64,000 bases of DNA from NCBI GenBank assembly GCA_015039365.1, contig WION01000157.1, positions 1-64,000 of the forward strand, read 5' to 3'. The DNA comes from Amanita rubescens (lineage: Eukaryota; Basidiomycota; Agaricomycetes; Agaricales; Amanitaceae). Shown here in pieces: positions 35,149 through 52,600 of this stretch (the first letter of the stretch is position 1; each line of letters opens with the position of its first letter). The translations under genes and the position numbers were made by a program. Under the pieces are notes generated by a model that ran no database searches, was not told where the DNA came from, and saw nothing but the letters and a program-made list of their open reading frames with translations.

Positions 35149-35988
35149 TCAGAGTTTCCTACGTTTCTTATATTCGTCAAGGATATCCTCGGCGTTTGAC
35201 AAGTTCCTTTGGGGTTCCCAAGTGTTTTCGCTTGTATCATAGCCTTTCCATTTGACGAGAAACTGTAATTGACATCCGATCTTTCGGTGTGCGAGAATAG
35301 CTTCTATTTCGTATTCTTCTGATCCTTCTATCAGATCGGGTGGTGGACGTGTGTCGTTAGGTCCATGGAATTCTGTTTCTTTGAATGGTGATAGTAGACA
35401 TGCGTGGAATACGCTGTGTATCTTCCATTGTTTTGGTAAGTCTAATTGATAGGTGACAGGTCCTAAGACTTTCTTTATCTTGAAGGGTCCTTCCCGTTTA
35501 GGTGCGAGTTTACGTGATTGATAAGGAATGTGTAGGTTCTTTGAATCTAGCCAGACCTTTTCTCCTTCTTTGAACGGTTTAGAGTGTTTCATCGTTCATT
35601 GTGCCATTTTGAGGCGTGCAAGGTCGTGTGCTGCCAGAGCTTCTTCTCTTGCTTTGATCAGGAGTCTGATGCGTTCATCTGCTACAGGGGTAGCTGATTG
35701 TTCTGTAACCTGGGGTAGTGCCACAGGGTTAGATCCATACATGAGATAGAACAGTGATTGTTTCAGTTCTTCATGCGTTCTAGAATTATGAGCGAATTGC
35801 GTGATAGGAAGTATCTTGTTCCATTTGTCTGGTTCGTAAGTGCAGAATATGCGGAGGTATACTTCAAGTACGGCATTATAGCGTTCCGTTTGTCCATCTG
35901 TTTGAGGGTGAAAGGCGGTGCTCATTTTGTGTTTGATCTGAAGTGCGCTGGTTATCCCTTTGAAGACTTTTGCTGCGAACTGCGGTCT
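35149..35988 (-). pseudogene. element A pol, C-terminal half: integrase end and chromodomain
   Basis: Continues the integrase from 51558: PQFAAKVFKGITSALQIKHK, then STAFHPQTDGQTERYNAVLE with the catalytic Glu in QTERYN, then KPFKEGEKVWLDSKNLHIP. A classical chromodomain follows: EAILAHRKIGCQLQFLVKW, KGYDTSENTWEPQRNLSNAE. Chromodomains steer Ty3 integration toward marked chromatin. One in-frame TGA (35596-35598, between KMAQ and TMKHSKPF) interrupts it, probably from CGA. The pol stop TGA (35149-35151) is followed at once by the ATG of the next ORF. Confidence 0.85.
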
Positions 35989-36260
35989 TGTAAGGCTCGT
36001 ACGTCAGTAGAAGCCGGACGTTGTATATATCTATGCTCAAGACTCTGGGGAGTTTGTCTAACTCCCAATCTTATCTCTTTCCGTATATAGCATTAGTATA
36101 GTTACGCGTGACTACTTAAGTCACCTTATACCTATTAGATAAGCAGTCAATTCTTGTAACGCGCACATTAGCACTACCGGAATACACCCAGTACAGTGCA
36201 CCGCGCGTTTGAATAACTCGGAGATTATATCTCCACTATTATAAACTTATCAACTTTACA
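35989..36260 (+). repeat. 5' LTR of element D
   Basis: TGTAAGGCTC...CAACTTTACA, 272 bp. Contains TATATA-rich promoter-like stretches (36023-36032, 36084-36090) and perfect hairpins GGGAGTT/AACTCCC (36048-36066) and GGAGAT/ATCTCC (36220-36234). Confidence 0.97.
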
Positions 36261-36366
36261 CTTTTTTGCACTACCACGTTGTGTGTAGTAGCGCGGCAAC
36301 TTACAATCGAAAATCAACCAAAAACCTAGAAAAACAAACAAACTCAAAATTAAATAGAACGACGCG

Positions 36367-39300
36367 ATGTCCTTCGCGCCGAACAAAGCCAAGAACAAGA
36401 AAACCACTAGGGCTTCTCTTTCAAACACGCCCGCTGGCTCCGGGGGAAGTTCCCCCGTGTTAGTCCAACGTTCGGTTAGCACGTCGAACGCGTCAAAACC
36501 CGCGTCCGGCCCGGCACTGGATACCGGCAACGTAACCGTGAGGAGCGCAAGTTACGCTCATGCAGCCTCACACGTAAAAGCTGCAGCGGCTCCTGCAACT
36601 CCCGCTAGGAGTAATAGGTCCCCAGCGAGACCTTCTCGCTCCCCGAGGACGGAACCTTCCCTCCTCGGAATGAAACCCAAGCCACCTAAAACGAGTCCAG
36701 AGGACTCGAGACCAAGCGAATACAGAAAGGGGATATCGCTTAACTCCCCTCCCGAAGGTCGAGTTCCGTTCGGGCCAATAACACAATTGCCATTTAGGCT
36801 TAGCCAGCAAGCCTCTAGGAATGCCGAAGAGGAACGGGAAGTCCAACAATTGACTTCCCCAGACAAGGAACAGGCTGAAATTCAGCCCGAAGTCCCACAG
36901 GATATCCTGGAACGGGTTACCCCCCTTTCCGAAGATATGCCACTTCTCTTAGCCCCATCAGTCATGGAGACGGCTATCCCAAATCCCGCTCACGCCAGTC
37001 AGTTAGCGGACAACATCACTCGCGGAAAGCTCCGCGAAATCAAGGATTCTATTAACAACTCCATGGCGAGACAACAGCAACAATTCAGTATTGGAATGTC
37101 CCAAATACTGAGAGAGCTCCGCGAGTTCAACGTCTCAGTACAACAAGAACTTCGCACCTCAAACGATAAGAATACGCAGATCCAAACCCTGCTCTTAGAT
37201 GAACTTCGACGAACGAGAAGTCAACGATCTTACTCCGAGAGGGAACCCTCCCCTCAAGGTTCTGTGAGATCACAGTCCCCAGCTTTGAGCTACGTGTCCG
37301 TGGAACCGCAAGACACGACCGAACATATATCGATCCTGTCCTCTCGATATAGAGGCAGAGGCATGGCCCCTGCTGAACCCGACGACAGGGAAGAACTTAT
37401 TGCTCGCCTACATGAGTCGGGCGAACTAGACGCACTGATTACCCTCAAGAAGCTAGAGTTCAGACGCTCAACGGGAGATACGGGAAGTTTCGCAAATCGT
37501 CAGGGGCGGAATGAGTCCGTTCCGAGCTATGATGCTCGATTAACGACCAGCGCCAGGAACGCCGTCCTGGCAGAGATTAAGGCGGGAACTGATCCTGCTA
37601 CGCTTTTCGAACGTTTATCTCCAAACCGAAGGCAGACAAGATTTGAGGAACCGCCACGAAGGGAGCCCTTCCTCACGGGCGCGAACACGACGCCTTTGGG
37701 CGTTGCCTCAGGGAACGCCACGACGAATGACGTTCCAGATCAAAGAAGGCCACGCGGTACACCAAGCCCTTCATCCCCAAGTTCTGCTGGTGGAGGAAAC
37801 CCCGAGGACAGAGTCCCACGGAATTCTCGATACTTAGGACATATACCGGGTTATAGACCCAGCATGTCAGTCAGCAATGTCGGGCGCAACCCTATCACTA
37901 TTGGTCCTTTGACCATTGTTGATCGCTCGTCCGAAAGAACGGACGACATGGTCAGGTCAGAAATCCTCAATGCCCTTCAGGCAGCGGAACATCGCTCCGA
38001 CGCCATCAATGTTGGGAAACTGATGAAAATATCACTTCCTGAATACTCGGGAAGTGAATCTATGGACGCATACATGAAGTTTCTACGAGAACTTCTATTA
38101 TACCTATTGAACTACAACCTGATGAAGCCGGATTCGGACGCTCACCGAGTCGGTATATTGGGCGCAACATTAAAAGATAGAGCGCTAAGATGGTATCAAC
38201 ACACCATCAATCTCAACGCGGACGGCAGGTGGAACTTCCAGTCTGCCATGATCGAACTCAAACGACACTTCGTGAAAGACGTATCAGCTCGGGACGCGGC
38301 CGTACGATTCGACCGTCTCAAACAGAAGAACAGGACGGTAGCCGACCTTAAGAAGGAACTCGAACGGTTGAGTCAGCTCATGATTCAACAGCCCTCCGAG
38401 TACGACATGAAACGTCGTTTCCTAGACGCACTAAAGCCGGAAGTCTCTGGCGCGGTCCTATGCTTCGGGTTGAACCCGGAGAGCTCAGACTTTGACCTCC
38501 TGTTCGATAAAGCGAATGCGATCGAACAAGGCCAGTTATATGAAGAGAGTCATCGTAACGAGCGAATGAGCAAAAACGCTATAACTGGCTCTCAAAATCA
38601 AACCTACAAATCGTCTTCAGGCAAATCGTCAAAACTGTCGGGGAGGAAGTTCGTAAAGAAGCCTAAGAAAGAGGCAAGGGACGACAAGCCGACGGACCCG
38701 TCATCGAAGTCAGTGGAATGCTACCACTGTAAGAGAAAAGGACACATCAGTAAAGATTGTCCCAAAAAGACGGGCAAGAACAGATCCGCCAACGCGGAGC
38801 CTGCTGACGAGGATGAGGAAGCGGAAGCGCAAGGCAATGCTGCAGACGCTGACACCGGAGACTCTGAAGATTCAGAGTCAGGCCAAGATGATGATCACGA
38901 GGATCAATCGGATGAACAAGCAGAAAATGGCCCAGACTCGGACAATCTGTCCCTGAACGACTGGTGCCCCCAGGCTTGCGCTATAAGGCCTTACGTGGAG
39001 TCGTTGGATGACGAAGACGACGTCGTCGTTTACCACGAGCCAGGATCTCGTGGGAGGCCAGAACTTGTCGACTGGTCTCAAATGTCAGGCAGCAGCGTTG
39101 AATACGAGGACACCTCCTCTGTCGACGAACACGCTCAGGACGACATGCCAGAGCCAATGGTGTGGGATTGCCGAACAACACGCATAGTAGAAGACGACGA
39201 ACGTATGGAGTCCTGCAAAGCTAATGAGACGAATGGCGAACTTGTCGCGTATCGACAACGAGCTACCAAAGAATTCGGGTCACTCAGACTTGAGGATGGG

Positions 39301-39858
39301 CCGAAAAGAGACTTCAAGCGTTTGGGCGTTATAGAAGGTTACATGCGGATTAACGGCAACAGGGCCCACGTATTAATGGATGGGGGAAGTACCCTCGACA
39401 TGATATCGGCCAATTTTGCGTCTGTACTCGCGCTGGAAATGTTCCAGCTCAAGAAGCCAATAAAACTGCAAATGGCTACCTCTGGATCAAGGTCTTCCAT
39501 TAATCATGGAGCACGCGCAGAACTCCAAGTAGGGGAGTTCAAACAAATGCGATACTTCGACGTGGTCAACCTTGACCGTTACAACGTTATTCTCGGGACA
39601 CCATTCCTGAAGGAACACAAGATTATATTGAATTATGCTGGACACGGATCCTTCAAGCTGAAGGACAGATGGTTCCCAGTCCGGGAAGGCGATTTTAGCA
39701 GTCCTGTTTCCAAAAATGGGGAGGAAACGGGTGACGCCGTCGATAAAACCAAGTCTAGCACAAAAGGAAACGGGTTTAGCTCGCAACCACGCAAGTCTAT
39801 GAGCAGCAGCAACGGGAGGAATCCTAGCCCCTCGGTGCCGTATAAACGCTCTCATTGA
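36367..39858 (+). CDS. element D Gag-protease (1163 aa), ends in UGA-CUA
   Basis: ATG 36367 follows a 106-bp leader after the LTR. Residues 1-500 are Ser/Pro/Arg-rich and low-complexity. The capsid-like part at about 550-740 includes MKISLPEYSGSESMDAYMKF and ILGATLKDRALRWYQHTINL. The CCHC knuckle CYHCKRKGHISKDC starts at C785. The retropepsin region has VLMDGGSTLDMIS with catalytic Asp at 1005; the usual DT/SG triad reads DGG here. VILGTPFLKEHKI supports the protease call. The stop is TGA at 39856-39858, followed by CTA, and the frame stays open into pol, so stop readthrough would give Gag-Pol. Gag packages RNA; the protease matures the polyprotein. Confidence 0.9.
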   Translation: MSFAPNKAKNKKTTRASLSNTPAGSGGSSPVLVQRSVSTSNASKPASGPALDTGNVTVRSASYAHAASHVKAAAAPATPARSNRSPARPSRSPRTEPSLLGMKPKPPKTSPEDSRPSEYRKGISLNSPPEGRVPFGPITQLPFRLSQQASRNAEEEREVQQLTSPDKEQAEIQPEVPQDILERVTPLSEDMPLLLAPSVMETAIPNPAHASQLADNITRGKLREIKDSINNSMARQQQQFSIGMSQILRELREFNVSVQQELRTSNDKNTQIQTLLLDELRRTRSQRSYSEREPSPQGSVRSQSPALSYVSVEPQDTTEHISILSSRYRGRGMAPAEPDDREELIARLHESGELDALITLKKLEFRRSTGDTGSFANRQGRNESVPSYDARLTTSARNAVLAEIKAGTDPATLFERLSPNRRQTRFEEPPRREPFLTGANTTPLGVASGNATTNDVPDQRRPRGTPSPSSPSSAGGGNPEDRVPRNSRYLGHIPGYRPSMSVSNVGRNPITIGPLTIVDRSSERTDDMVRSEILNALQAAEHRSDAINVGKLMKISLPEYSGSESMDAYMKFLRELLLYLLNYNLMKPDSDAHRVGILGATLKDRALRWYQHTINLNADGRWNFQSAMIELKRHFVKDVSARDAAVRFDRLKQKNRTVADLKKELERLSQLMIQQPSEYDMKRRFLDALKPEVSGAVLCFGLNPESSDFDLLFDKANAIEQGQLYEESHRNERMSKNAITGSQNQTYKSSSGKSSKLSGRKFVKKPKKEARDDKPTDPSSKSVECYHCKRKGHISKDCPKKTGKNRSANAEPADEDEEAEAQGNAADADTGDSEDSESGQDDDHEDQSDEQAENGPDSDNLSLNDWCPQACAIRPYVESLDDEDDVVVYHEPGSRGRPELVDWSQMSGSSVEYEDTSSVDEHAQDDMPEPMVWDCRTTRIVEDDERMESCKANETNGELVAYRQRATKEFGSLRLEDGPKRDFKRLGVIEGYMRINGNRAHVLMDGGSTLDMISANFASVLALEMFQLKKPIKLQMATSGSRSSINHGARAELQVGEFKQMRYFDVVNLDRYNVILGTPFLKEHKIILNYAGHGSFKLKDRWFPVREGDFSSPVSKNGEETGDAVDKTKSSTKGNGFSSQPRKSMSSSNGRNPSPSVPYKRSH

Positions 39859-39876
39859 CTACAAGGACCCGAGAAT

Positions 39877-42630
39877 ATGAAACCCTATTCCGCAGCAGCA
39901 GACGTTGGGCGGAAGGGTACCACCTCCATAACGACGGAGGAAAGAAATAAATTACGCCTGAAATGGATCGACAAAGTAAAAGACTTACAAGCGCCAGAGG
40001 AGTTAACCATGCCTCCTCTACGTATAATCAACCACGAGATTCCACTAATAAATCCGAATCTCAAGATCGTTCACAGAGCGGCAAAATGCCCGGAGCCACT
40101 TAGAGATGAACTCAAGGAGAAAGTAGACCGATACCTAAAGGCGGGATACTGGGTCAGGACGGAACTACCCTCCTCGGCCCCTATGCTGATAGCCTTCAAG
40201 AAAAGCGGAAAAATAAGGACCGTCATTGACGCCAGACAACGCAACGATAACACACTATCTGATTCCACGCCCATGCCTGATCAAGAGACGATTAGGAACG
40301 ATGTGGCCCGAGCGAAATTCCGCTCGAAGATTGACTTATCCGACGCCTACGAACAGATCCGTATCTCCCCTGAACACGAGTCCCGGACTGTATTCTCCAC
40401 AATCTACGGGAACATGAAAAGCATGGTAATGCAACAGGGAGACAAAAACGGGCCCGCTACTTTCCAGAAGTTAATGAACTTCTCCTTTGCCGACATGTCA
40501 GCCGTCTTCGTCCATTGCTATCAAGACGACATATTCGTGTTCTCAGACACTCGCGAGGAACACGAAGATCACTTACAGATGGTCTTTGACCGTCTCAGAA
40601 AGCTCAGGTTGTACCTAAGCAGAAACCCGGAAAAGATCGACCTATTTTCGACAAATATGGACTGTCTGGGGTTCATAGTTGACGACGAGGGAATACATAT
40701 TGATCCCTCGAAAGTTGACAAGATCACACAATGGCGAACGCCCAGAAACTACCAGGACGTCCTGAGATTCAACGGGGTCATTCAATACCTCGCTCAATAC
40801 ATTCCAAAGGCTACGGAATATACTGCTCCATTAACTGGAATGTGCAGTAATAACAGAGAATTTGTGTGGACAGACTTCCACGATCTCTGCTTCAAGAAAC
40901 TCAAGAATTTGGTCGAGAAGAACATTGTCTGTCGACCCATAAACGGGAAACTTGACGTCCCTATTTGGGTAATCACGGACGCTTCTGCGACAGGAGTCGG
41001 CTGCTGGTACGGACAAGGGCCGACCTGGGATACGATATGGCCCGCGGGATTCTTCTCGCGGAAATTCACGCCTGCCCAAATGAATTACTGCACTTGGGAA
41101 CAAGAGCTACTAGGCGTCCTGGAAGCATTACTGCGCTGGGAAGACAAACTCCTAGGTCTCGCTTTTACCGTCGTCACCGACCACCAGGCATTAACGTTCT
41201 TCAACGAGGCCCCGACACGATCCCACCGTAGAACACGATGGTGGGAATACCTCTCCAGATTCAACTTTAAAATGCAGTACCTGAAGGGAGAGAAGAACAT
41301 TGTCGCGGACGCGCTGTCTAGATACTTTGCGAGCGATGAGCCGGACGAAACTCACGATGTTTCGGCATACGTCAACGCGGATTTCAGACTGGATCCGGAG
41401 CGTAATGACCTCACCATTGCTCGAACAGCAGAGTTGATCGCGTTTAAAGTGAATGCATATCCTACTTCTGGGAGGAAGGAGCTGGTCCGCGACCATGTTG
41501 AACAACGAGCTGTAGAAGCTCAAAATATATCTCGAAGCAAAGAAACGGAGACAGAGAATCCTCCAGATATCAACCCTATCGACGGAAGCTTCCAGTCGAT
41601 ATTCAAGGCTTTTCCCGAGTCGTACACAAAGGACAAGTTCCTAGCTCATATCTGGGAACATACCGACAGGTTCAACAAGTTTTTAAAGCAGAAGGATCTG
41701 CTTTGGACCAATAACAGGACGGGATCAAGAGTCGTCTGTGTCCCTGACGGCCTGCTCAAAGGGAAATCTCTGAAAGGGCTCGTCATTGACGCCTGTCACC
41801 AGACTATCGGCCACTTAGGAACTGAGCGAACGCTCAAATACATCAGACGTTGGTTCTGGTGGGCCACAATGGCTGAAGATGTCGATGACTTCTGCAAATC
41901 ATGCGGAAAATGTCAGACGACGAAACACTCCCGACAGAAGAGCCCAGGATGGCTCCATAACATGACATTCCCTTCACGGCCTTGGGAAAGCATCGGCATG
42001 GACTTCGTTGGCCCCTTCGTTGAAGTAGACAACTTCAACTACATCCTCCTTGTCGTTTGTCGAATGACAGGGATGGTACACTTAATCCCGACGCGAACCG
42101 ACGTATCAGCCAAACGAGTGGCTGAATTATACGTTAAGGAGATCGTCAGGCTTCATGGCATCCCGGAGTCCATCGTGTCTGACCGCGACACGAAGTTCAC
42201 GTCCCAATTCTGGAAGGAATTAAGCAAAATCCTAGGCCAGCGTTTGCTGATGTCCTCGTCATACCACCCTCAAACCGACGGTTCGTCGGAAAGAGCCATT
42301 CAAACCATGTCGCAAGTTCTGCGATCAGTGGTGAATGACTACCAGACGAACTGGGTGGAACAATTGCCACTGGTGGAATTCGCCATGAACTCTGCTCACA
42401 ACAAAACCACTGGCCACGCCCCCTTCGAAGCAAACTATGGATGGCTACCTCGTATGATACGTGGCGCCAGCTTCGATAGCCCACGAGAGGGCGTGAAGCA
42501 ATTCGTCGAGCGGATCACAGGCGTACTGGACAAGACCTTCGACAACATCACCGTACAAAGAACTCGTCAGGCTAAACAGGCTAACAAGCACCGACGAGAC
42601 GGACAAAATTTCCAAAAGGACGACTTAGTG
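39877..42630 (+). CDS. element D Pol: reverse transcriptase, RNase H, integrase core
   Basis: In frame with gag (six codons after the TGA, then ATG 39877). RT: IRTVIDARQRNDNTL, KIDLSDAYEQI and the active site YQDD at residues 215-218. RNase H: WVITDASATGVGCW, TWEQELLGVLEALLRWEDKL, TVVTDHQALTFF, ADALSRYF. Integrase: HHCC finger (HQTIGHLGTERTLKYIRR...CKSCGKCQ), then the DDE triad D709 (GMDFVGPF), D769 (VSDRDTKF) and E805 (SSERAIQTM), spacing DD35E. No broken codon up to 42630, where the KDZ element begins exactly after codon GTG. The frame resumes at 48726. Confidence 0.95.
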
Positions 42631-43051
42631 CAACACTTTACCCTCCCCCACGTGTCCTTGTAGACTCCTTGTGGACTCCCGGACTCCTCAGGACTCCTCA
42701 GGACTCCCTGTAGATTCCTGATAAATTGACATAAAATGCCAGGAGTGGATAAGGACTCCTTGTGGACTCCTTGTTCACTCCCTGTTCACTCCTCATTGGC
42801 TGCAAAAAAGCGAAAAATGCCAGGAGTCAACCCACAAGGAGTGGACCAGGAGTCCCTGTGGAGTCCTGCTCACTCCTGGTTCAAGCAAAAAAGTAGTACA
42901 TAAGTAAAAATTGCAAGGACTGGACAGGAGTCCCTGTGGGGTCCTGCTCACTCCCTGCTCACTCCCTGCTCACTTTTCATTACTGCAACAATGGCAACAG
43001 AAGTCTGTTATAGTACATAATGTTACATAACAAATCTCAATAACTACAAAA

Positions 43052-45240
43052 CTATTCAAAACTATCATCTACATCAATACCAACACCACCATCATCATCA
43101 CCATCCACCTGTGGCCCACTTTTTTCTTGCTTCAATTGATTGTTGATGACATGTCTTGTGTGGTAGAAAAGCATAGTATGCAGGAACCAGTTAAAATTGC
43201 CACTAGTCATCCTTTTCAGTATTTGCTCATAACCACCTAGCCAGGCATTCAATTGTTCACATGCCTGTGTATTGAAGGCACGCTTGTAATAAAGCTCTCC
43301 CTCAGCTGTTCTTCCTGCAATAACCAGGTTTGGAGCAGAACCATTCATAGGGGCAGGATTGCACCACTCCCGACACAATTGGTCTGTTGCTCTGTGGTTG
43401 GAGTAGTGATATGTATCAACTATAAATCTAGTTGTATTCTTCCATTCTTCCCATCTTCCATTTACTAAACAGCTTCGAAGAACTAAACAGGCCTTGTCAA
43501 TGCAAACATAATCAGGCCTGGAGTCTGAAGTGGGGTAAACTTTCTCCAAAAAACTCATGATATTTGCAGGTGACTCTGACTTTGCAAATTTTGCCCAAGC
43601 TACAACAACTCCACAGGGTGCACATATAGTTTCTACACAGTAGAATCTTGGTGGAGTAAAGGAATTTCTTGCCCTCTGTGTTCTTTGTTCTTCATCATGT
43701 GGTTGTACTACATTATTGTTTGACTGAGGCATCCATGGCCATGTCTCATCTGGCCTTCGTAGTGCTCTCCTGAAACCACCCAATGCCTGTTGTCTGTGAT
43801 TCCTTAAATATCTTTGCCAAGTACCTTGGTGCTGTCCACAGGCTTCAGTGCCTTGTACCTTTGGATTGGAACAGTTTGCAACATGGCAAAGACCACCATA
43901 CAAATTTTCATGAAAAGCACAATACATGCCACCTCTTGAATTTTGCAAGTCACTGGTGCAGTCATTATAGGCACAGTGTGAATGGCCCATGACAATGCCA
44001 TCTATAACAACCATTGTCACAGGTGCATATTCTGTATCTGTACTTGCACTCCCTGGCTCATTTTCTACATTGGTTTCACCTTGTATAACTTCATCCATTC
44101 CCACCATGCCTGATATGTTATTGGATAAGATGACATCAGCAGATTCCTTGTATTTGTGTGTACATTCTTCACAAGTATGTTGTTCAGCAGCCCTGATGAT
44201 CCCATCCTCACCAAGGGTGTTAAATGCCTGTCTTGTGACCTCATCTATTGACAGACCATCTTGCAATGTGAGGTTTATGTTTAGGTTTGAAGCAATAAAA
44301 CGTATAGACTCTTGGACAAATGCTTGCCAGATCTGACGTCTTGTCACTTTCCCCAGATGACTCAGTCCATCATTACAGAAATCAGAAAATGCATCTGCAG
44401 ATGCATGGAAAGTGTATATGCCACTCAGCACAGCTGAAGTAAATTTGCGATCAACCCATAAATTACTTCCAATCTTGACATGCTTAGCAGCATTGAGATA
44501 AACCCGCTCATGTCTATCCCCATTTGCTATAGGTGCCCTCTCATGATCAGCATAGTATAATGTTTTGCATTCTTTGCAATACCCTGACAAGACAGGTACA
44601 TTTTCATAAGAAATGAAGTTCTTCATAAGTCGTACAAGTGGAATGTCTCGCTGTCTTGACCATTGATATAAAGCATTTTTATTGCAAGCATATGTCTGAC
44701 AAACAGCTGTTCCTGGACAAACAATGTGAACAGGCTGTATTGCCTCTTGTGAAACAGGTTTTAAATTGCCCTTGAATTTTCCATTTGTTTTGCATGGATA
44801 CAAGTCAAGAAGCTTTGCAAGTGCATCAATTTTGAGACCAAGAACAATGGCAACTTTCTCATCTGTAATACCAGTATGCACATCTGATGCCTTCAACAAG
44901 TGGCTGCTTGTCTCTCTCAGCCTGCCATTCAGTGCATGTCCCAGACACCTAATCCAACCTGTTGCTACTGTGCTCCTCTCCCTTTGCCCTTCTGCATTCC
45001 TTTGACGAAAGTGTAGACTAAGCAGATCAACATTCTCTATAGTAGTGAAGAAGGTCATTAACACCACTGATAATGTTACAGTGGAGCTGAAGTGATTCTC
45101 AACAAATTTATTGAACATCTTGAATGTGATATCAGGGAAAGGTTGCTCTCCCTTTGCAGCAACAGCAGGAACATAGCATAGCATCACACTGACTAGCATT
45201 ATCCAAATAGGAAACTGAAAAAAGATAGGCATAGGACTAG
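43052..45240 (-). CDS. KDZ-like transposase with CxC5/CxC6-type cysteine clusters
   Basis: About 730 codons open to 43052. Cys modules: VHIVCPGTAVCQTYACNKN, GYCKECKTLYYADHERAP, HTCEECTHKYKE, HSHCAYNDCTSDL, MYCAFHENLYGGLCHVANC with SNPKVQGTEACGQHQ. This matches the Cys-rich layout of agaric proteins annotated as KDZ-associated CxC5/CxC6. The C-terminal catalytic-like part has CAPCGVVVAWAKFAKSESPA, RPDYVCIDKACLVLRSC, TTRFIVDTYHYSNHRATDQL and RAFNTQACEQLNAWLGGYEQ. No internal stop. No clean ATG at the 5' end; splicing a 47-nt intron (GTAAGC...GCTAG, 45277 down to 45231) would join it in frame to the exon at 45280-45789, so the two may be one gene. Confidence 0.7.
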
Positions 45241-45279
45241 CTAATTTAAAAAACACAACACATAGGTACAGTTCAATGC

Positions 45280-48200
45280 TTACTTAGCTTTCCTCTTGTG
45301 ACTCTTCTTTGAGTTTTTTTCCAATTGAGATTGCCCTTCACTGTCCCTCTTGTTTTTACCCTTCTCCCCATTTCCCCTTCTCCCTTTCTCATCTTTAAGA
45401 TCAGCAAAGGTATAAGTAGCCTTCCTCTTGCCCCAAACCTCTGTGTCTGTAGGGGAACCAACTTCATTCTCCAGCCACTCCTTGAGCACAGGGAAATTGT
45501 TGATGTCAGAAAATGCAGGAACTACATATGCAAACCAGGTTGACTTGGATGCAAAAAGTTCAATGATAGTGATTGCAGTAGGCCTCTTTCCAGGCCAGGT
45601 CCCAGCCCCCACTTTCTGATCCAAGACCTGCTGAGCTTCCAGACAACATTTGTATCTGGCATAGTACTGCCTGATACCAAGAGCCTTAGAGCTCACCTCC
45701 CTTGTCAATTGCTCAGGAATGTTGAGCAATGTAATCAGTTCATTCTTGGAGTGCTCTGCAGCTGTAGATTTTCCTGCTTTTACACTCACAGGAGGCTCAG
45801 ACCTAACTTGAGGGGTGTAGGCTATCTCAGTGTCTAACTCCTGTATGGCTTTTAGCTCTCAGAAATGTCAGATATAACTTTACTTGCAGCACAGATCATC
45901 ACAGTAGGTTTTCCATCAACAGTTATCCACTCAAGTTCTTCATCATCTTCAAGGGCACTGCTGAAAGGGCCTTTGATACTCCACAATCCATCTTCAGCCA
46001 CATATACAATCCTGTTTTGTGCTACAGCAAGGCAAGTCAATATTATGATTACTGAAAATATATTGCAAAAAAACACTCACCTTCAATGTAAGGTGCACGC
46101 TTACCAAGCATTTTCAAGACAGGGCCTAATGTTGGGCAGACACCTATCTTAAAAAATGCCTTGGGAGCAGCATCCACAGGATCCATGACCAAGGCATCAT
46201 GGACCCTGACAATCCCCTTAGCAGAAGCAGCTTGCAGGGTCAGATGTTCTGCATCTCCATGATTGAACACATTGCCCAAGGCATTCCCCCTTAGTATACC
46301 TCCAGTAGTGCGAGAGGAGCCTTGAAGTGCAGGCTTGGGGCCCACTTCTTATTTATGTCAGGCACTTGTAGTGGTACATAAGACTATATCTTACCATCAT
46401 CCTGATCAAAAAAATTATTCCCACCAACCTTTGTCTTTTATTCAGTCAAATATCAATAGATGGGCACCAAAACAACTCACCTCCTTCATGGTATCCACAA
46501 TTTCATCTTCATTATAATTAATTCCAGCAAAATCAGTCTGTGACACTCTCAGCTATCACAGCTATCATTGAATGTGCACCCAATATTGACTGACCTCCTT
46601 CATTCCATCTGAATTTTCATCATGATCCTGTTTCTAGCTTTCAGAAATTATAATTATGAATACATATGTATTAACTGACCTCATCCCTTACATCATCTTG
46701 TACACCCAAACTCTCCATATCAAGATCTCTTACACCATGCTCCTGATCACTGCTACTTTCACTATTGTCACTAACCTTATCACTAATCTTCTTATCACCA
46801 TCATTGCTGTCATCACTTCCTGCACCTTCTCAAATTGATTTGTCTCTCACAAAAAGAGCAACATGACATACTTGACTCCTCACTACTTTCCTCCAAGTTG
46901 TCTTGTCGAATACGAGTTGATTGAACTTGAGCTGCCCGTGAGGGAGCAAAGGAAATAGCAGACTTGCGAATACGTGCAGGTGGTGCAATGGATACACCAC
47001 TGTTCTCAAGTATTTGTTCAGCTCTACAAGAAACACGGTACATATGGTACAGTGTAGGTATGACACACCAGAGCACTTACCGTGTGTTCTGAGTTGGTGC
47101 ACTCTCTGCCATCATGGCATCTTCAGCAGCTCGAGCAGCTGAGTTTTTCCTCATGGATCTGGGTTGGTTGTGAATGCAAGCATAATGGGGTCAAGGGCAG
47201 GGTGTTACTTACCTAGTGACATGGGAAGTGGGAACGGGTTAGTTGTGGGCATAAACGGGTGAGATGTAGAGTGGTGACATGGCAGGTGGGAACGGTTCCA
47301 TGGTGGGTGCAAACACGTCGGGTGCGAACGGGTGTGGTGGTGGCCTGTTAGCTATGGGCTTGATGGGTGGGGCATTGCTTACCTGGATGGGTGGGAATGG
47401 GTCCGTGGCGGATGGGAATGGGTCCGTCATGGGTGCAAATAGGTGTGGTGGTGGTTCTGTTAGCTATGGGTTAGATGGGCGGGGCAATCCTTACCTGAAG
47501 GGCGGGAACGGGTCCGTTTTGGGCGTAAATGGGTGAGGTGGTAGCGAGGCGGGTGGGAATGGGTCCGTTGGAGTGGCGAGCGATGTGGCGGGTGGGAACG
47601 GGTCCGTTGTGGGCGCAAATAGGGGTGGTGGTGGCCTGTTAGCTATGGACGCGATGGGCGGGTGTTGCTTACCTGGATGGGTGGGAACGGGTCCGTTGTG
47701 GGCGTAAACGGGTGGAAACGGGTCCGTTATGGGCGTAAATGGGTGAGGTGGTAGTGAGGCGGGTGGGAACAGGTCCGGTTGTGGGCGCAAATAGGGGTGG
47801 TGGTAGCCTGTTAGCTATGGATGTGATGGGTGGGGCGTTGCTTACCTGGATGGGTGGGATGTGAGCGTAAACGGGTGGGAACGGGTCCGTTATGGGCGTA
47901 AACGGGTGAGGTGGTGGCGAGGCAGGTGGGAACGGGTCCGTTGTGGGCGCGAATGGGTGTGGTGGTGGCCTGTTAGCTATAGGTGCAATGGGTGGGGTGT
48001 TACTCACCTGGAAGGGTGGGAACGGGTCCGTTGCAGGCGTAAATAGGTGAGGTGGTGGCGAAACGGGTGGAACGGGTCCGTTGGTGACGTGGCAGGTGGG
48101 AACGGGTGCTGCGGTTAGCGCGGGACAGAGAATGGGTAGCGGTGGATGGGCTTACCGTGTGGACACGTTGGGGGTGCTCTGTGTGGCCGCGCTATCCTTA

Positions 48201-48373
48201 CCAGCCGCTGGCGTTGCACGGGCGTCGTCGTCGGTCTTGTCGGCTCGTCGTTGTTTCTTTCGTTCCTTCCCGGGGCTCTTGATGGACGCTGTGGATTTGG
48301 TCCGTTTGCGACAGGAACGGGGAGGTGGGGAGCGTGGGGCAGCGGACGTGTGTGCTGAGCGGGTGGTGGGCAT
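45280..48373 (-). CDS. upstream exons of the KDZ element: nuclear-type protein or N-terminus of the transposase
   Basis: First exon, ATG about 48373: MPTTRSAHTSAAPRSPPPR, then the basic SPGKERKKQRRADKTDDD, ending at GTAAGCCC near 48152. The minisatellite region 47206-48115 follows. Then MRKNSAARAAEDAMMAESAP (47156) and GVSIAPPARIRKSAISFAPS, an acidic exon GSDDSNDGDKKISDKVSDN, NALGNVFNHGDAEHLTLQAA with LVMDPVDAAPKAFFKIG, NRIVYVAEDGLWSIKGPF, EWITVDGKPTVMICAASK, and last TWPGKRPTAITIIELFASKS ending SHKRKAK at 45280. No recognised domain; basic and acidic tracts suggest a DNA- or chromatin-contacting role. Exon joins are inferred from GT-AG signals. Confidence 0.5.
47206..48115 (-). repeat. Pro-rich minisatellite with embedded intron signals
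   Basis: Five to six imperfect units built from CACCCGTTCCCACC-type blocks; on the minus strand they can read as PPPHPFAPTTDPFPPASP. Each unit contains GTRAG...CCATAGCTAACAG: candidate introns at 47345-47382, 47457-47494, 47636-47672, 47808-47845 and 47970-48007 (38, 38, 37, 38, 38 nt). A longer normal-looking intron (GTAAGTAAC...CAACCCAG) ends before 47160. Confidence 0.7.
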
Positions 48374-48725
48374 GAGCGTCGTGGTGGTGGGAGACGTGGT
48401 GCACAGCAGTTGTGACTGTGACATGTAACTGTAACAAACTTCACAGGCCTTCACAAATGCACATATACACTAAATAAACAGGGAGTCCTTGTGGACTCCT
48501 GACACTCCCTGTGGACTCCTCATAAGGGGAGTCCAGAGGAGTCCCGGGAGTCTACCGGGAGTCTACTGGGAGTCCTGGCTCACTCCCGGTGCATTTTGGC
48601 CTGGGATGAGGGGTCTCCCAGGGAGGTAGGAGTCCGGGAACTTCCCTCTGGAGTCCCGGGAATTCCCGGGAGTCCTCAGGAGTCTACAGGGAACGCGTGG
48701 GGGAGGGTAAAGACCTCACTTAGTG

Positions 48726-49166
48726 CTCCTTTCGACGGAAAACATTAACCTCCCTCGTGGACGCGCTAGGAAACTGTGTCCGAAGTTTATCGGACCATTC
48801 AAGATCATCAAAGCTTACCCGGAGAGTTCAACTTACAAGCTGGAGCTCTCTCCCAACTTACTATCTCGTAAAATGCATGATGTATTCCACGAGAAGCTAC
48901 TAAAACAATTCGTTGGGAATGATCCTGACAAGTTCCCGAAAAGGGAATCGCAAACGAACTACGACGTCGGTGTGGACCCGGAACGTGAATGGGTTGTAGA
49001 GGCCATCGAGGATCACAAGTGGACGCCCCGCCTTAAATTCAAGGTGCGATGGGCTCTGGGTGATTTCACCTGGGAACCACTACATGTGGTCAATGATCTC
49101 GAAGCCTTGGATCACTACCTGGAACTCGAAGGAGTTACCAAGCCCTCCGAACTTCGGAGAGTTTGA
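48726..49166 (+). CDS. element D Pol, C-terminal part: integrase tail and chromodomain
   Basis: Resumes the pol frame right after the KDZ element: LLSTENINLPRGRARKLCPK, then FIGPFKIIKAYPESSTYKLE, then a divergent chromodomain EWVVEAIEDHKWTPRLKFKV with RWALGDFTWEPLHVVND. Ends RRV-TGA at 49164-49166 followed by CCT; the same frame continues open for 252 more codons. Confidence 0.85.
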   Translation, partial: LLSTENINLPRGRARKLCPKFIGPFKIIKAYPESSTYKLELSPNLLSRKMHDVFHEKLLKQFVGNDPDKFPKRESQTNYDVGVDPEREWVVEAIEDHKWTPRLKFKVRWALGDFTWEPLHVVNDLEALDHYLELEGVTKPSELRRV

Positions 49167-49925
49167 CCTTCGGTGGCAGTGTACCCTCCCGATTGGCCCG
49201 TCTTACGCCAGTTACCAAATTGGGAGATCCATGTAAGACAGCGGTGGGAACCTCCCATGCGTCCTCTCTTTTATCACTCCATCCTCATGTCCACATCGCG
49301 CGACTTCACCTTTAGCCGACAACCCTCGCAAAACGAGAATACGCGCTCAAAGCGCGGTCTGTCCTCACCCCCGCAAGTCACGGGTAGGGAAAAAGATCGC
49401 CGGAGACGCACTCGCTCTCCCTCACCCGACGAATCCCGAGGACTCTCCTCGCGTCGCCGGCCCGTCGACGCTGCCGATTTCCTTTCCAAAGTACTGCCGG
49501 AGTGGGAAGTACATGAATCCACTCATATCCTACTCCACCTCACCAAATGCGAAGAGTGTGCGGACTTCGCCGCACACGTAGCCAAACAGACTCAGGGCGG
49601 AGCCCTTGAGATTTTTATCGACAAACAGAAACGACACTGGCGTCGAGTTCTAGAAGAAGAAAACAGAAGAGATCGGGAAGACGCCTACCAAGCGGGTATC
49701 CGATCTGCTGATCGAGAAGTCGGTGCTCTTAAGGACGAGCTTGACCGGTACCGCCGCCGTGCCGAAAACTTGGAACGAGACATAGACGAGTTACTTGATA
49801 AGAACCGTCGGCTCGAAAGCCGCCTGAACAGCCAAGGGCCTCATTTCCGTAGGGGAGAAACCCGAGGTAGACCCACGGGCAGTGAATTCAGGAGACCTCA
49901 ATCTCCAGCACGGGGATATGAATGA
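49167..49925 (+). CDS. element D module 3, coiled-coil protein, in frame after a UGA
   Basis: Open from the codon after the pol TGA (PSVAVYPPDWPVLRQ) to TGA 49923-49925. The first ATG would be in MRPLFYHSILM (about 49257), or it is made by readthrough. Middle: DAADFLSKVLPEWEVHESTH, LHLTKCEECADFAAHVAKQT. Then a long charged coiled coil (RDREDAYQAGIRSADREVGA, LERDIDELLDKNRRLESRLN) and an Arg-rich tail. It lies where env would be in infectious retroelements but has no membrane segment or signal peptide. Function unknown; a structural or RNA-associated role is speculation. Confidence 0.6.
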   Translation, partial: PSVAVYPPDWPVLRQLPNWEIHVRQRWEPPMRPLFYHSILMSTSRDFTFSRQPSQNENTRSKRGLSSPPQVTGREKDRRRRTRSPSPDESRGLSSRRRPVDAADFLSKVLPEWEVHESTHILLHLTKCEECADFAAHVAKQTQGGALEIFIDKQKRHWRRVLEEENRRDREDAYQAGIRSADREVGALKDELDRYRRRAENLERDIDELLDKNRRLESRLNSQGPHFRRGETRGRPTGSEFRRPQSPARGYE

Positions 49926-51230
49926 AGCCAACCGCCATCAGTCCCTGTACAGCCGGACCGATCCTTGCTATCTAGAATCGAAGGAAGCCCTGCTCCTTCG
50001 ACGGCCAAACCCACCTCCGCTCCTGCTCCCTCGTCGGCCAAACCCACCTCCTCTGCGAAAGAGAAGGAAAAAGAACAGGCTACGGGCCTAGACGCACCAC
50101 CTCCTCCTACTGAGCCAACCCCGCGATCCCCATCACCTCAGAGCGACGTATCTTCAAACATTCGAGTAAAAGGGACCGGCAAAGCTCCCAAGATGTACCT
50201 GACGGACAACTCTGATGAGGTTTCGATACCGGATGAAGAAGGGCTAGATCGACACGATACGCCCGAGGGGGAAGATTCTCCCCCTTCCAAGGCAGAAGAT
50301 GCTTTTCAACCGATGACAAACAGTCAATACATTGGAGATCAAACCCCCTTCCGTCTCGACAAGGATTCCAAAGCATTCCAGAGCAAACACGGTCACGTCT
50401 GCATTAGCGACCCGACACACTGGAATCGTAGTAGCTCAGCGCTGTTCGAAAAGGCGAACCGTCTCAGAGGATATCGACTATGGGTCAGCGGATTCCCGAT
50501 GCAGATGGCGAAGGAAGCTTCCCTTGTCCCATTCGACCAACGATCGGACGCTCAACGTTGGACCGTTCGAGATGCTACAAGAGTTGGGTACCTTCCCCTG
50601 CTTAGCGCTCGGGCTGAGCCCGACGTTGAAAAGCTGGCGGAGGAGAACCGCTTACCCTCCTTCTTGCGACGAAACCCAGACGGCCGCCTGAACGCGAAGG
50701 ACGTCACGGCTTGGCTACTCCTTAAGATGACAGAACCTGAAGAACCACAGGTTACTGAGTGGTTCTGGTGGACTGCCTGCCGCCTGTTCGCACGTCTCGG
50801 AGATTACAAGGAGGCATTAGATCGGCTAAGCCTGCGCGACGAGCCGAAGGGCTATGTCCCTATCCATCTCATGTTCTTCCGAGAGCTCACTAGGGATGAA
50901 CTCGCGCTCCACTTCCACCGCTGCGGAGTCCGAGTATCCGATTGCACCAGTCACCTGTGGGACTTCTCGAGGAATTACCTTCGAGGAAGATCATCCCCAG
51001 CACTGCCCCCCTGGTCAACCTTGCCCCCCTCACGGCCTAGAGAATCCCGGCCGTCGAGCTCTCAGAGAAAGAAACGCGGCTACAAGGCTTTCACCGATCG
51101 CGGTCAGGAACCACCTCACCACCACTCTTCAAATACCGTCACTGGATCGACCAGTGAACCTGCAAGACATCATCAAGGCCATCGCGTCCAAGGACCTTCT
51201 CAGAACGATGCAAGCATGCACGTCGATTAA
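49926..51230 (+). CDS. element D module 4, function unknown, in frame after a UGA
   Basis: Continues the same frame after TGA 49923-49925 (SQPPSVPVQPDRSLLSRIEG) to TAA 51228-51230. The first ATG lies far inside (MYLTDNSDEVSIPDEEG, about 50193). Pro/Ser-rich N-terminus, acidic linker, then a Trp- and Arg-rich globular-looking part: HVCISDPTHWNRSSSALFEK, LRGYRLWVSGFPMQMAKEAS, RWTVRDATRVGYLPLLSAR, TEWFWWTACRLFARLGDYKE, LTRDELALHFHRCGVRVSDC. A His/Arg-rich tail ends 55 bp before the 3' LTR. No family recognised. Lack of an early ATG favours synthesis by readthrough or from a shorter RNA. Confidence 0.6.
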   Translation, partial: SQPPSVPVQPDRSLLSRIEGSPAPSTAKPTSAPAPSSAKPTSSAKEKEKEQATGLDAPPPPTEPTPRSPSPQSDVSSNIRVKGTGKAPKMYLTDNSDEVSIPDEEGLDRHDTPEGEDSPPSKAEDAFQPMTNSQYIGDQTPFRLDKDSKAFQSKHGHVCISDPTHWNRSSSALFEKANRLRGYRLWVSGFPMQMAKEASLVPFDQRSDAQRWTVRDATRVGYLPLLSARAEPDVEKLAEENRLPSFLRRNPDGRLNAKDVTAWLLLKMTEPEEPQVTEWFWWTACRLFARLGDYKEALDRLSLRDEPKGYVPIHLMFFRELTRDELALHFHRCGVRVSDCTSHLWDFSRNYLRGRSSPALPPWSTLPPSRPRESRPSSSQRKKRGYKAFTDRGQEPPHHHSSNTVTGSTSEPARHHQGHRVQGPSQNDASMHVD

Positions 51231-51285: not shown

Positions 51286-51557
51286 TGTAAGGCTCGTACG
51301 TCAGTAGAAGCCGGACGTTGTATATATCTATGCTCAAGACTCTGGGGAGTTTGTCTAACTCCCAATCTTATCTCTTTCCGTATATAGCATTAGTATAGTT
51401 ACGCGTGACTACTTAAGTCACCTTATACCTATTAGATAAGCAGTCAATTCTTGTAACGCGCACATTAGCACTACCGGAATACACCCAGTACAGTGCACCG
51501 CGCGTTTGAATAACTCGGAGATTATATCTCCACTATTATAAACTTATCAACTTTACA
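51286..51557 (+). repeat. 3' LTR of element D
   Basis: Base-for-base copy of 35989-36260 as far as I can compare, preceded by the purine tract at 51274-51285 and followed by the target duplication GGTCT. Confidence 0.97.
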
Positions 51558-52600
51558 GGTCTCCTGTCAGATATCATGATGTCTGGTAATCCGAAGTTCT
51601 TGAAAACTTCTTTGATGTAGAGGTCGGCGGTTTCGGCTGATGTAATAGTTTTATTACAGGGACATAGAATTACTCCCTTTGAAAGTCCTTGGTCGACCAC
51701 GACAAAGATAGAATCAAAACCGTCACTAGGTGGTAGATCGGTGATGAAATCCATGGTGATTTGTTGAAATGGTCGGTGTGCATGGGATTTAATTGGCATT
51801 AGGGGTGTGGCGGTGGGGTGTGTATTAGGTTTCATCTGTTGACAGGTAAGACATCCGTCGATAAAACTTTTGACAAGTGTTGTCATTCTAGGCCTCCAAT
51901 AGTGTTCTCTTAGTAGGCTAAGTGTTTTGAAGAATCCAGGGTGTCCTGCGCTCGGTGCTTCATGGTATTCTTTAATAATAGATCAGCAAAGATCGGAGTC
52001 CATTGGTACATATGCCTTATTTTTGAATAGGATGATTCCGTTGTCTTCGGTCCAATCGGTGATTGCTGTGCAGAGGGGTGCTGTTCCTTTCTCCTTTAAG
52101 CATCTTCTAATGGTTTCAGCGAACTCATCGGTTTGAGTTGCGTTCTTTACTTGATCTCGGAGATCTTCGGCGATGATTTGAATGAATAGTGAGTCAGGGA
52201 GCATCGTGACTGTTTCATCGTCTTCTTCTCCATTGGTATGATCAGGTCGGCGGGATAAGGCGTCCGCTTGAGTTAATTTTGCTCCGGGTATGTGAATTAG
52301 TTGGTAAATATATCTTGAAAGATTATTCCACCATCTTGCTTGTCTAGCTGTGAGACGTTGTGGTGCGCGGTAATAGGTTAAGTTTTTGTGATCGCAGTGT
52401 ATAGTGAGTGTGTGTTCTGCTCCAAGCAGTAGGTATTTCCATTCGTCAAGGGCGTAAATTATAGCAAAGAGCTCTCAGTCGTAGATTTGCCAATTTCGTT
52501 CAGTAGGCGTAAGTGCGTGTGAGTCTCAGGTTCCTTATCGCTTCATCTCAGGTTTCAGTAGTCATGAAGAACGCCAGCACTTTCACTTCGAAATCGTTCC
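51558..52600 (-). pseudogene. element A pol: RNase H tail and integrase N-terminal/core
   Basis: Minus strand: LTPTERNWQIYD-stop-ELFAIIYALDEW, then TLTIHCDHKNLTYYRAPQ, HIPGAKLTQADALSRRPDH, DGCLTCQQMKPNTH, ITMDFITDLPPSDGFDSIFV, KNFGLPDIMISDR, cut at 51558 by element D and continued at 35988. RT and protease are missing: gag residues (FFMTTET-stop-DEAIRNL) run directly into the RNase H block, so a large internal deletion fused gag to RNase H. The in-frame stops are TGA where CGA (Arg) is expected. Confidence 0.85.

Follow-up and report, generated by a model that had tools for sequence, protein, structure and literature searches.

Organisation of the element

The window analysed here, a stretch of 64,000 nucleotides (nt) of contig WION01000157.1 from Amanita rubescens, carries on its plus strand a Ty3/gypsy retrotransposon with long terminal repeats (LTRs), hereafter the family A element, whose protease (PR) and reverse transcriptase (RT) regions share one reading frame and are split by a single UGA followed by C (site 1), a candidate for programmed stop-codon readthrough. 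The Pfam matches lie along the element in the order Gag, PR, RT, RNase H and integrase (IN), as in Ty3/gypsy elements (Metaviridae). The first open reading frame (ORF1) matches Retrotrans_gag (1.8e-6), zf-CCHC (2.8e-5) and RVP_2 (4.9e-7); ORF2, the pol frame, gives an rve match for the integrase of 30.9 bits, slightly under the cut-off of 32.6, and an SH3_Tf2-1 match (2e-12) at its C-terminus, together with a weak Chromo match (E 0.53, below cut-off) for the chromodomain expected of chromovirus-type elements. A third frame, ORF3, follows pol, and the 5′ and 3′ LTRs are identical at 272 of 272 bases, with GGTCT on both outer flanks (Table 1).

The open frames in the window run from 36358 to 39858, 39859 to 42663, 48711 to 49166, 49167 to 49925 and 49926 to 51230, and this list confirms what a first-pass annotation of the same DNA had described, namely a shared frame of about 2,920 codons with three TGA breaks. 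Its contexts for these breaks, TGA CTA (39856), TGA CCT (49164) and TGA AGC (49923), as well as the final TAA, were read directly in the sequence. All three stops are thus real and in one frame here; the annotation had treated them as one kind, and in this it does not stand, as sites 1, 2 and 3 differ in nature.

Table 1 Features of the family A element in the window.
Feature	Positions	Strand	Remark
5′ LTR, TGTAAGG..CTTTACA	35989..36260	+	target duplication GGTCT at 35984-35988
ORF1: Gag (capsid, CCHC knuckle) and aspartyl protease	36367..39858	+	terminates at UGA site 1
Linker, protease motif WFPV to UGA	39682..39855	+	58 codons
Site 1: UGA then CUA, putative leaky stop between PR and RT	39856..39858	+	
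ORF2: RT, RNase H, integrase, C-terminal Tf2-1-type SH3 domain	39859..49166	+	split by KDZ insertion
Predicted RNA hairpin 1	39882..39918	+	counterpart predicted in all six families
Predicted RNA hairpin 2 (CCUCC..GGAGG)	39923..39940	+	predicted in all six families; within conserved peptide
KDZ-type DNA transposon within ORF2	42632..48717, ends approximate	-	CxC5/CxC6 clusters; 8-bp target duplication
Site 2: probable pol terminator	49164..49166	+	TGA in 16/16 copies read
Spacer, pol stop to ORF3 start	49167..49286	+	no coding signal in pol frame
ORF3, own AUG; window modules 3 and 4 are one ORF	49287..51230	+	
Site 3: private nonsense change in ORF3 of the window copy	49923..49925	+	CpG to TpG
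3′ LTR	51286..51557	+	GGTCT follows at 51558-51562

The stop codon between protease and reverse transcriptase

Copies were sought by a DNA search of the element's own genome (75.7 Mb, 786 contigs), which gave, for family A, at least 7 copies covering the region of site 1, at least 10 covering site 2 and at least 10 covering site 3, as well as more diverged relatives; these counts are lower bounds, only the best candidates having been scored. The site 1 junction was read in seven copies of family A (C65, C224, C164, C157, C86, C103, C173), five of B (C156, C117, C783, C121, C30), three of B2 (C87, C36, C223), one of C (C759b), two of D (C759a, C167) and one of E (C545), leaving out C11, C629, C2, C62 and C515, in which the DNA analysed ends short of the site. 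TGA followed by C, in the PR/RT frame, was present at 19/19 of these junctions in six families, so that the alignment of genomic copies supports the leaky stop that the annotation had suggested at this site; on the plus strand of the window as a whole, 22% of 1216 TGA triplets precede C. The constancy of UGA-C is set within varying 3′ contexts (CTACAA, CTACAT, CTCGGG, CGCCAG, CGCCAA), the next codon being CUA in families A, D and E, CUC in C and CGC in B and B2. The linker upstream of the UGA likewise differs in sequence and keeps its frame, with lengths of 58, 62, 63, 49, 50 and 51 codons in A, B, B2, C, D and E, and on the far side the RT motif PPLR is reached after 51, 51, 51, 51, 49 and 49 codons in the same order.

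In C191 and C28, the most diverged relatives read, with identities of 50% and 46% in the RT piece, respectively, the protease runs into RT without a stop. In the tree of the RT piece, a branch with support 83/93 separates the rows that have the UGA (A, B, B2, C and E) from C191 and C28, the rooting being unsure on account of long branches. Among nine Gag-PR homologs in the protein database, seven end at the place of site 1 as judged by their last residues, which are KRTH or KRAH in P0132, P0134 and P0135 (Amanita brunnescens), CAE in P0133, KRQKH in P0137, KKSH in P0139 and KRTHH in P0131; such proteins reveal the position of the end only and not which stop codon is used.

The region 3′ of the UGA bears the mark of coding constraint, clearly so in one pair. 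The ratio of nonsynonymous to synonymous substitution rates (dN/dS) was 0.11 to 0.39 in 8 of the 9 pairs computed, many of them near saturation, and was undefined in the ninth. For B (C117) against B2 (C36), with dS of 0.58-0.91, it was 0.18-0.19 before the UGA and 0.11 after it, falling to 0.01 in the RT beyond site 1, indicative of strong purifying selection. Within the 25 B/B2 codons that follow the UGA, all of them before the first in-frame AUG, changes fall 3, 2 and 10 times on the three codon positions, and 10 of the 15 are synonymous for an expected share of 0.26 (P 0.0013), the shifted frames giving P of 0.83 and 1. These data bear on the alternative that site 1 is a true terminator and that RT-IN arises by reinitiation at a downstream AUG, as might be imagined for family A, where an in-frame AUG lies at +7 codons in 7/7 copies. 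However, the first in-frame AUG is far from the stop in the other families (+26, +26, +37, +24 and +24 codons in B, B2, C, D and E); because these positions differ, no AUG is common to all. The constraint in B/B2 precedes the first AUG, the shared GTTSI motif of family C lies upstream of it, and an RT-IN begun at an AUG would be without Gag, which usually brings Pol into the particle. We therefore regard reinitiation as unlikely.

RNA structure is predicted downstream of the stop in every family. Folds of 150 nt from the UGA gave z-scores of -1.7, -3.8, -2.9, -4.9, -5.6 and -2.6 in A, B, B2, C, D and E, and hairpin 1 is followed by hairpin 2 in all six predicted folds. Hairpin 1 starts about 15 nt after the stop in D and E, 22 nt in C, 23 nt in A and 27 nt in B and B2, in which latter two an outer stem is predicted to begin at about 10 nt. 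With an alignment of eight rows, RNAalifold found hairpin 1 alone, 5 of its 9 pairs having changes on both sides. Over the seven outer pairs, pairing is possible in 87.5% of 56 cells, a share reached by 1 of 500 shuffles; the covariation score of 0.633 stands against a shuffled mean of 0.396 (standard deviation 0.064; 0 of 500 as high) and 0.14-0.27 for slid positions. Cells of hairpin 1 pair in 96.5% of 57 cases within C, D and E, versus 33-63% when slid, and in 98.6% of 70 within B and B2, versus 34-63%. Hairpin 2 is less telling, because it sits in a conserved peptide. In scans along the elements the 90-nt window adjacent to the UGA reaches the top 8% in each of the six families and ranks first in none, the best window of family C starting 3 nt before the UGA. 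This region is also more stable than its synonymous recodings in all six families (z -1.3 to -5.0), four of which stand out (22, 5, 0 and 2 of 1000 recodings as stable).

Apart from these downstream elements, the UGA of families C, D and E is itself enclosed in a predicted small hairpin (L030 1771-1791, L022 1774-1787 and L066 1366-1379); that of family C has 9 bp, with UGACUCGGG pairing with CCCGAGUCA. A structured stop codon might be thought to favor another route by which the stop would be removed from part of the RNA, namely adenosine-to-inosine (A-to-I) editing of UGA to UGI. Such editing of stop codons occurs in filamentous ascomycetes; we know of none in mushrooms, and it would leave the conserved C after the UGA unexplained. 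Splicing of a small intron would have the same effect, and Gag of Copia is produced by regulated splicing (PMC2194720). No consensus-like intron (GT[AG]NG donor, CTNAY branch, YAG acceptor, 42-140 nt) spans the UGA in any of seven sequences, in a scan confined to sites of this consensus. Removal of the stop from the RNA by either route is, in our judgment, very unlikely.

Several observations weigh against readthrough at site 1 or weaken its support. P0131 is one residue longer than its relatives, and P0136 and P0138 (2/9) terminate elsewhere. Site 2, apparently the plain terminator of pol, is as invariably TGA (16/16) as site 1, and so an unchanging type of stop proves little by itself. The coding signal between UGA and AUG is significant in B/B2 alone (D/E P 0.11, C/E 0.21, C/D 0.07), perhaps owing to saturation and to the decayed E copy, and the 51 codons after the UGA in A versus C173, the pair of undefined dN/dS, contain no synonymous and three nonsynonymous changes. 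With respect to structure, two of the five covariation measures fall within the shuffles (double-change pairs 43/500, pair types 108/500) and the rows are related to one another; the two sets of close families exceed the shuffles in no measure (between 59 and 500, and between 86 and 500, of the 500 shuffles reaching the observed value). Many parts of these elements are structured, the window adjacent to the UGA ranking 7/234, 15/203, 2/205, 12/204, 10/205 and 18/225; B (68/1000) and E (103/1000) are not significant against recodings, and 5 of 18 control stretches also fall below 5%. In comparison with published systems, hairpin 1 begins 15-27 nt past the stop versus about 8 nt in type II viral signals (PMC3542737), and the gag UGA of Tca2 from Candida albicans, with its flanks, gave no readthrough in Saccharomyces cerevisiae (PMC2194720).

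Taken together, we estimate with a probability of roughly 0.85 that site 1 is a programmed UGA-C readthrough site giving Gag-PR and less Gag-PR-RT-IN. The comparison that points to it comprises the UGA-C itself, the frame and length kept on the RT side, a coding constraint that is clear in one pair, the recurring covarying pairing, and the lack of a conserved AUG. In the proposed mechanism, most ribosomes would terminate at site 1 and release Gag-PR, and a minority would insert an amino acid at the UGA to continue into Gag-PR-RT-RNase H-IN, helped by the following C (in CUA, CUC or CGC) and probably also by the downstream hairpins. That readthrough occurs, its rate, and the action of the hairpins on it are inferred from sequence.

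The two downstream stops, ORF3 and the nested insertions

The first-pass annotation had gone further, proposing that three leaky UGAs in one polyprotein set the graded ratios of four products. In favor of this are the single frame through all modules in the window and the behavior of site 2, which is TGA in all copies read (10 of A, 3 of B, 2 of B2 and 1 of C) and is followed by C in 15/16, with T in family C, the frame beyond being open in A, B and B2; this count leaves out C11, C87, C515, C156, C545, C28 and C191, in which the DNA analysed ends short. The spacer between the pol stop and ORF3, 40 codons long in A and 30 in B and B2, argues otherwise. None of the seven pairs tested has a coding signal there in the pol frame (P 0.27 to 0.76): changes fall 5, 7, 4 (P 0.76) and 5, 9, 4 (P 0.66) on the codon positions in two B/B2 pairs, and among the A pairs four gave P of 0.33-0.46 (A/C173 5, 7, 7, P 0.33) and one with a single change 0.27. 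From the AUG of ORF3 onward the same two B/B2 pairs show 9, 5, 23 (P 0.00024) and 9, 7, 24 (P 0.00012). It is these pairs that are informative, since power is low in the A pairs, whose first 60 ORF3 codons are also non-significant (P 0.09-0.54). Nor is the shared frame of pol and ORF3 general, because ORF3 of the single family C copy that was read is out of the pol frame, with many stops between. Readthrough at site 2, initially backed by that shared frame, was accordingly dropped after the spacer test and the family C comparison.

As a leaky stop, site 3 is refuted. The annotation had named a sense codon in other copies beforehand as grounds for giving it up, and all 9 of the other family A copies (C224, C157, C103, C164, C62, C86, C173, C629 and C2) have CGA at the aligned codon; the competing explanation that it had listed, a CGA-to-TGA mutation, holds here. 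Set against five copies, the window copy differs by 12 private substitutions over about 5.8 kb, of which five, including that at 49923, are CpG to TpG; private changes were taken from C65 alone, and the 210 private differences of C164 (92 transversions) probably come from a badly aligned stretch. The matched ORF3 stretches of other copies contain 15 stops, 13 of them TGA. Because CGA is the only codon that a CpG change turns into a stop, breaks due to decay are TGA. At the same rate of substitution only about one difference between two 272-bp LTRs is predicted, and the identity of the LTRs, which had been put forward as an argument against random decay, is for this reason a weak one. With site 2 unsupported and site 3 refuted there is no graded series, and a four-product polyprotein is extremely unlikely.

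The same decay might be invoked for site 1, as a sense codon lost in an ancestor and inherited by descent, for CpG decay in this genome turns CGA into TGA both among the private changes of the window copy and among the ORF3 stops just described. A stop common to every junction read in six families, followed by an RT under strong purifying selection, makes this scarcely credible, and readthrough at site 1 is retained.

Most likely, then, from the comparison of copies, site 2 is an ordinary UGA at which pol would finish, and ORF3 is a separate frame that would be translated from its own AUG; site 2 may have a low basal leak, and the likeliest source of the ORF3 protein would be a separate or spliced RNA. 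In B and C the AUG has Kozak-like surroundings (CCACCATGTC), and the homologs P0001 and P0002 begin at it with MSSSRDS. The other families of this genome retain ORF3 with 36-48% identity, and the protein database contains 10 homologs, with Amanita among their sources; the nine besides P0001 are 35-84% identical to it. Pfam searches with ORF3 and four homologs gave weak coiled-coil-type matches only and no clear domain; the protein is composed of a putative coiled-coil part and a conserved C-terminal region, with the motifs WFWW, FPMQMAKEAS and PFDQRS, that belongs to no Pfam family. Between pol and ORF3, the motif GTGGCNGTGTAC (49173-49184; L083, L085-L087) occurs in the C65-like A copies, B and B2, and is altered at its end in C173, C629 and C2. 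Its reading frame differs between A and B, a further point against a continuous product, and may be part of ORF3 expression despite the lack of a coding signal in this region.

The window copy is itself broken in ORF2 because a KDZ transposon sits there. The insertion, noticed in the first pass together with an 8-bp duplication, is confirmed by copy C224, which aligns to the window up to 42631 and resumes at 48718; the two matches share 9 nt of C224, in keeping with a target duplication of 8 bp and a single base shared by chance. Without the insertion, pol amounts by arithmetic to 3213 nt (1070 codons and a stop), equal to the open pol frame of 1070 aa in uninterrupted copies. On the minus strand, two overlapping KDZ-associated frames at 43052-45858 carry the CxC5 and CxC6 cysteine clusters, and a repeat family within the insertion (47320-48048) comprises three 104-nt copies, of which the others are 79% and 81% like the first. 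The family A element in turn is nested in the integrase region of a second Ty3 element (35149-36003 and 51536-52474, minus strand), giving three levels of nesting, from the outer Ty3 element through the family A element to the KDZ transposon.

Comparison with known recoding signals

It is worth comparing site 1 with known systems. In Tj1, Tosmo1-3 and Tcry1 of fission yeasts, a conserved GAA-TGA-CT lies between Gag and Pol with the protease on the Pol side, and Tj1 lacking the stop is inactive, the stop being required for transposition (PMC10085805, PMC4600332). The mushroom elements resemble this group in being Ty3 elements with an in-frame TGA between structural and enzymatic parts and with stop-less relatives (there Tf1 and Tf2). 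Unlike the Tj1 group, in which the stop separates Gag from PR-RT-IN, the mushroom stop separates Gag-PR from RT-IN, with RVP_2 upstream of the UGA; since the protease precedes the stop, this is not the Tj1 arrangement. They further differ in having CUA, CUC or CGC where the Tj1 group has TGA-CT, in the predicted 3′ hairpins and in the extra ORF3. Tca2 is an element of the Ty1/copia type. It too has a UGA between coding regions and a predicted 3′ RNA structure, but its stop lies between gag and pol (PMC2194720).

The viral type II signals (alphavirus, tobravirus, coltivirus) consist of UGA with CGG or CUA and a stem-loop about 8 nt downstream; site 1 is similar in its UGA-C (CUA in A, D and E) and predicted 3′ stem-loop, and differs in having CGC (B, B2) or CUC (C) in place of CGG or CUA and in the more distant start of hairpin 1 (PMC3542737). 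Readthrough of UGA-CU(A) in fungal metabolic enzymes, a context that works in the basidiomycete Ustilago maydis, adds a short peroxisomal tag, whereas readthrough at site 1 would add about 1,070 residues of RT-IN (PMC4207609). Among the papers listed in a literature search, largely without subscription papers, none describes a mushroom Ty3 element whose PR and RT are separated by a UGA, and a search aimed at Amanita gave no papers. In the literature consulted for this comparison, a leaky stop dividing structural from enzymatic proteins is known among fungal elements in the Tj1 group and perhaps in Tca2.

The findings also carry a caution: a run of UGA-only breaks in a genome subject to CpG decay is not by itself a sign of recoding, because TGA, from CGA, is the sole stop that arises by CpG change. 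What would be new relative to the Tj1-type stops is a leaky UGA placed between PR and RT, in mushroom elements with an extra ORF. A decision point after the protease is found in the avian alpharetroviruses, where it operates via frameshift. We put forward tentatively, at somewhat less than even odds, that the two predicted hairpins, with the UGA hairpin in C, D and E, may together be a stimulator dedicated to readthrough, new in its layout and conserved within a mushroom clade of Ty3 elements, which would decide between Gag and Pol at the PR-RT boundary and not at the Gag-PR boundary. If so, protease would be made at the level of Gag, and RT-IN alone would be rationed. Having diverged families and stop-less relatives in one genome, with UGA-C and recurring predicted hairpins, these elements would offer a natural series for dissecting the parts of such a signal.

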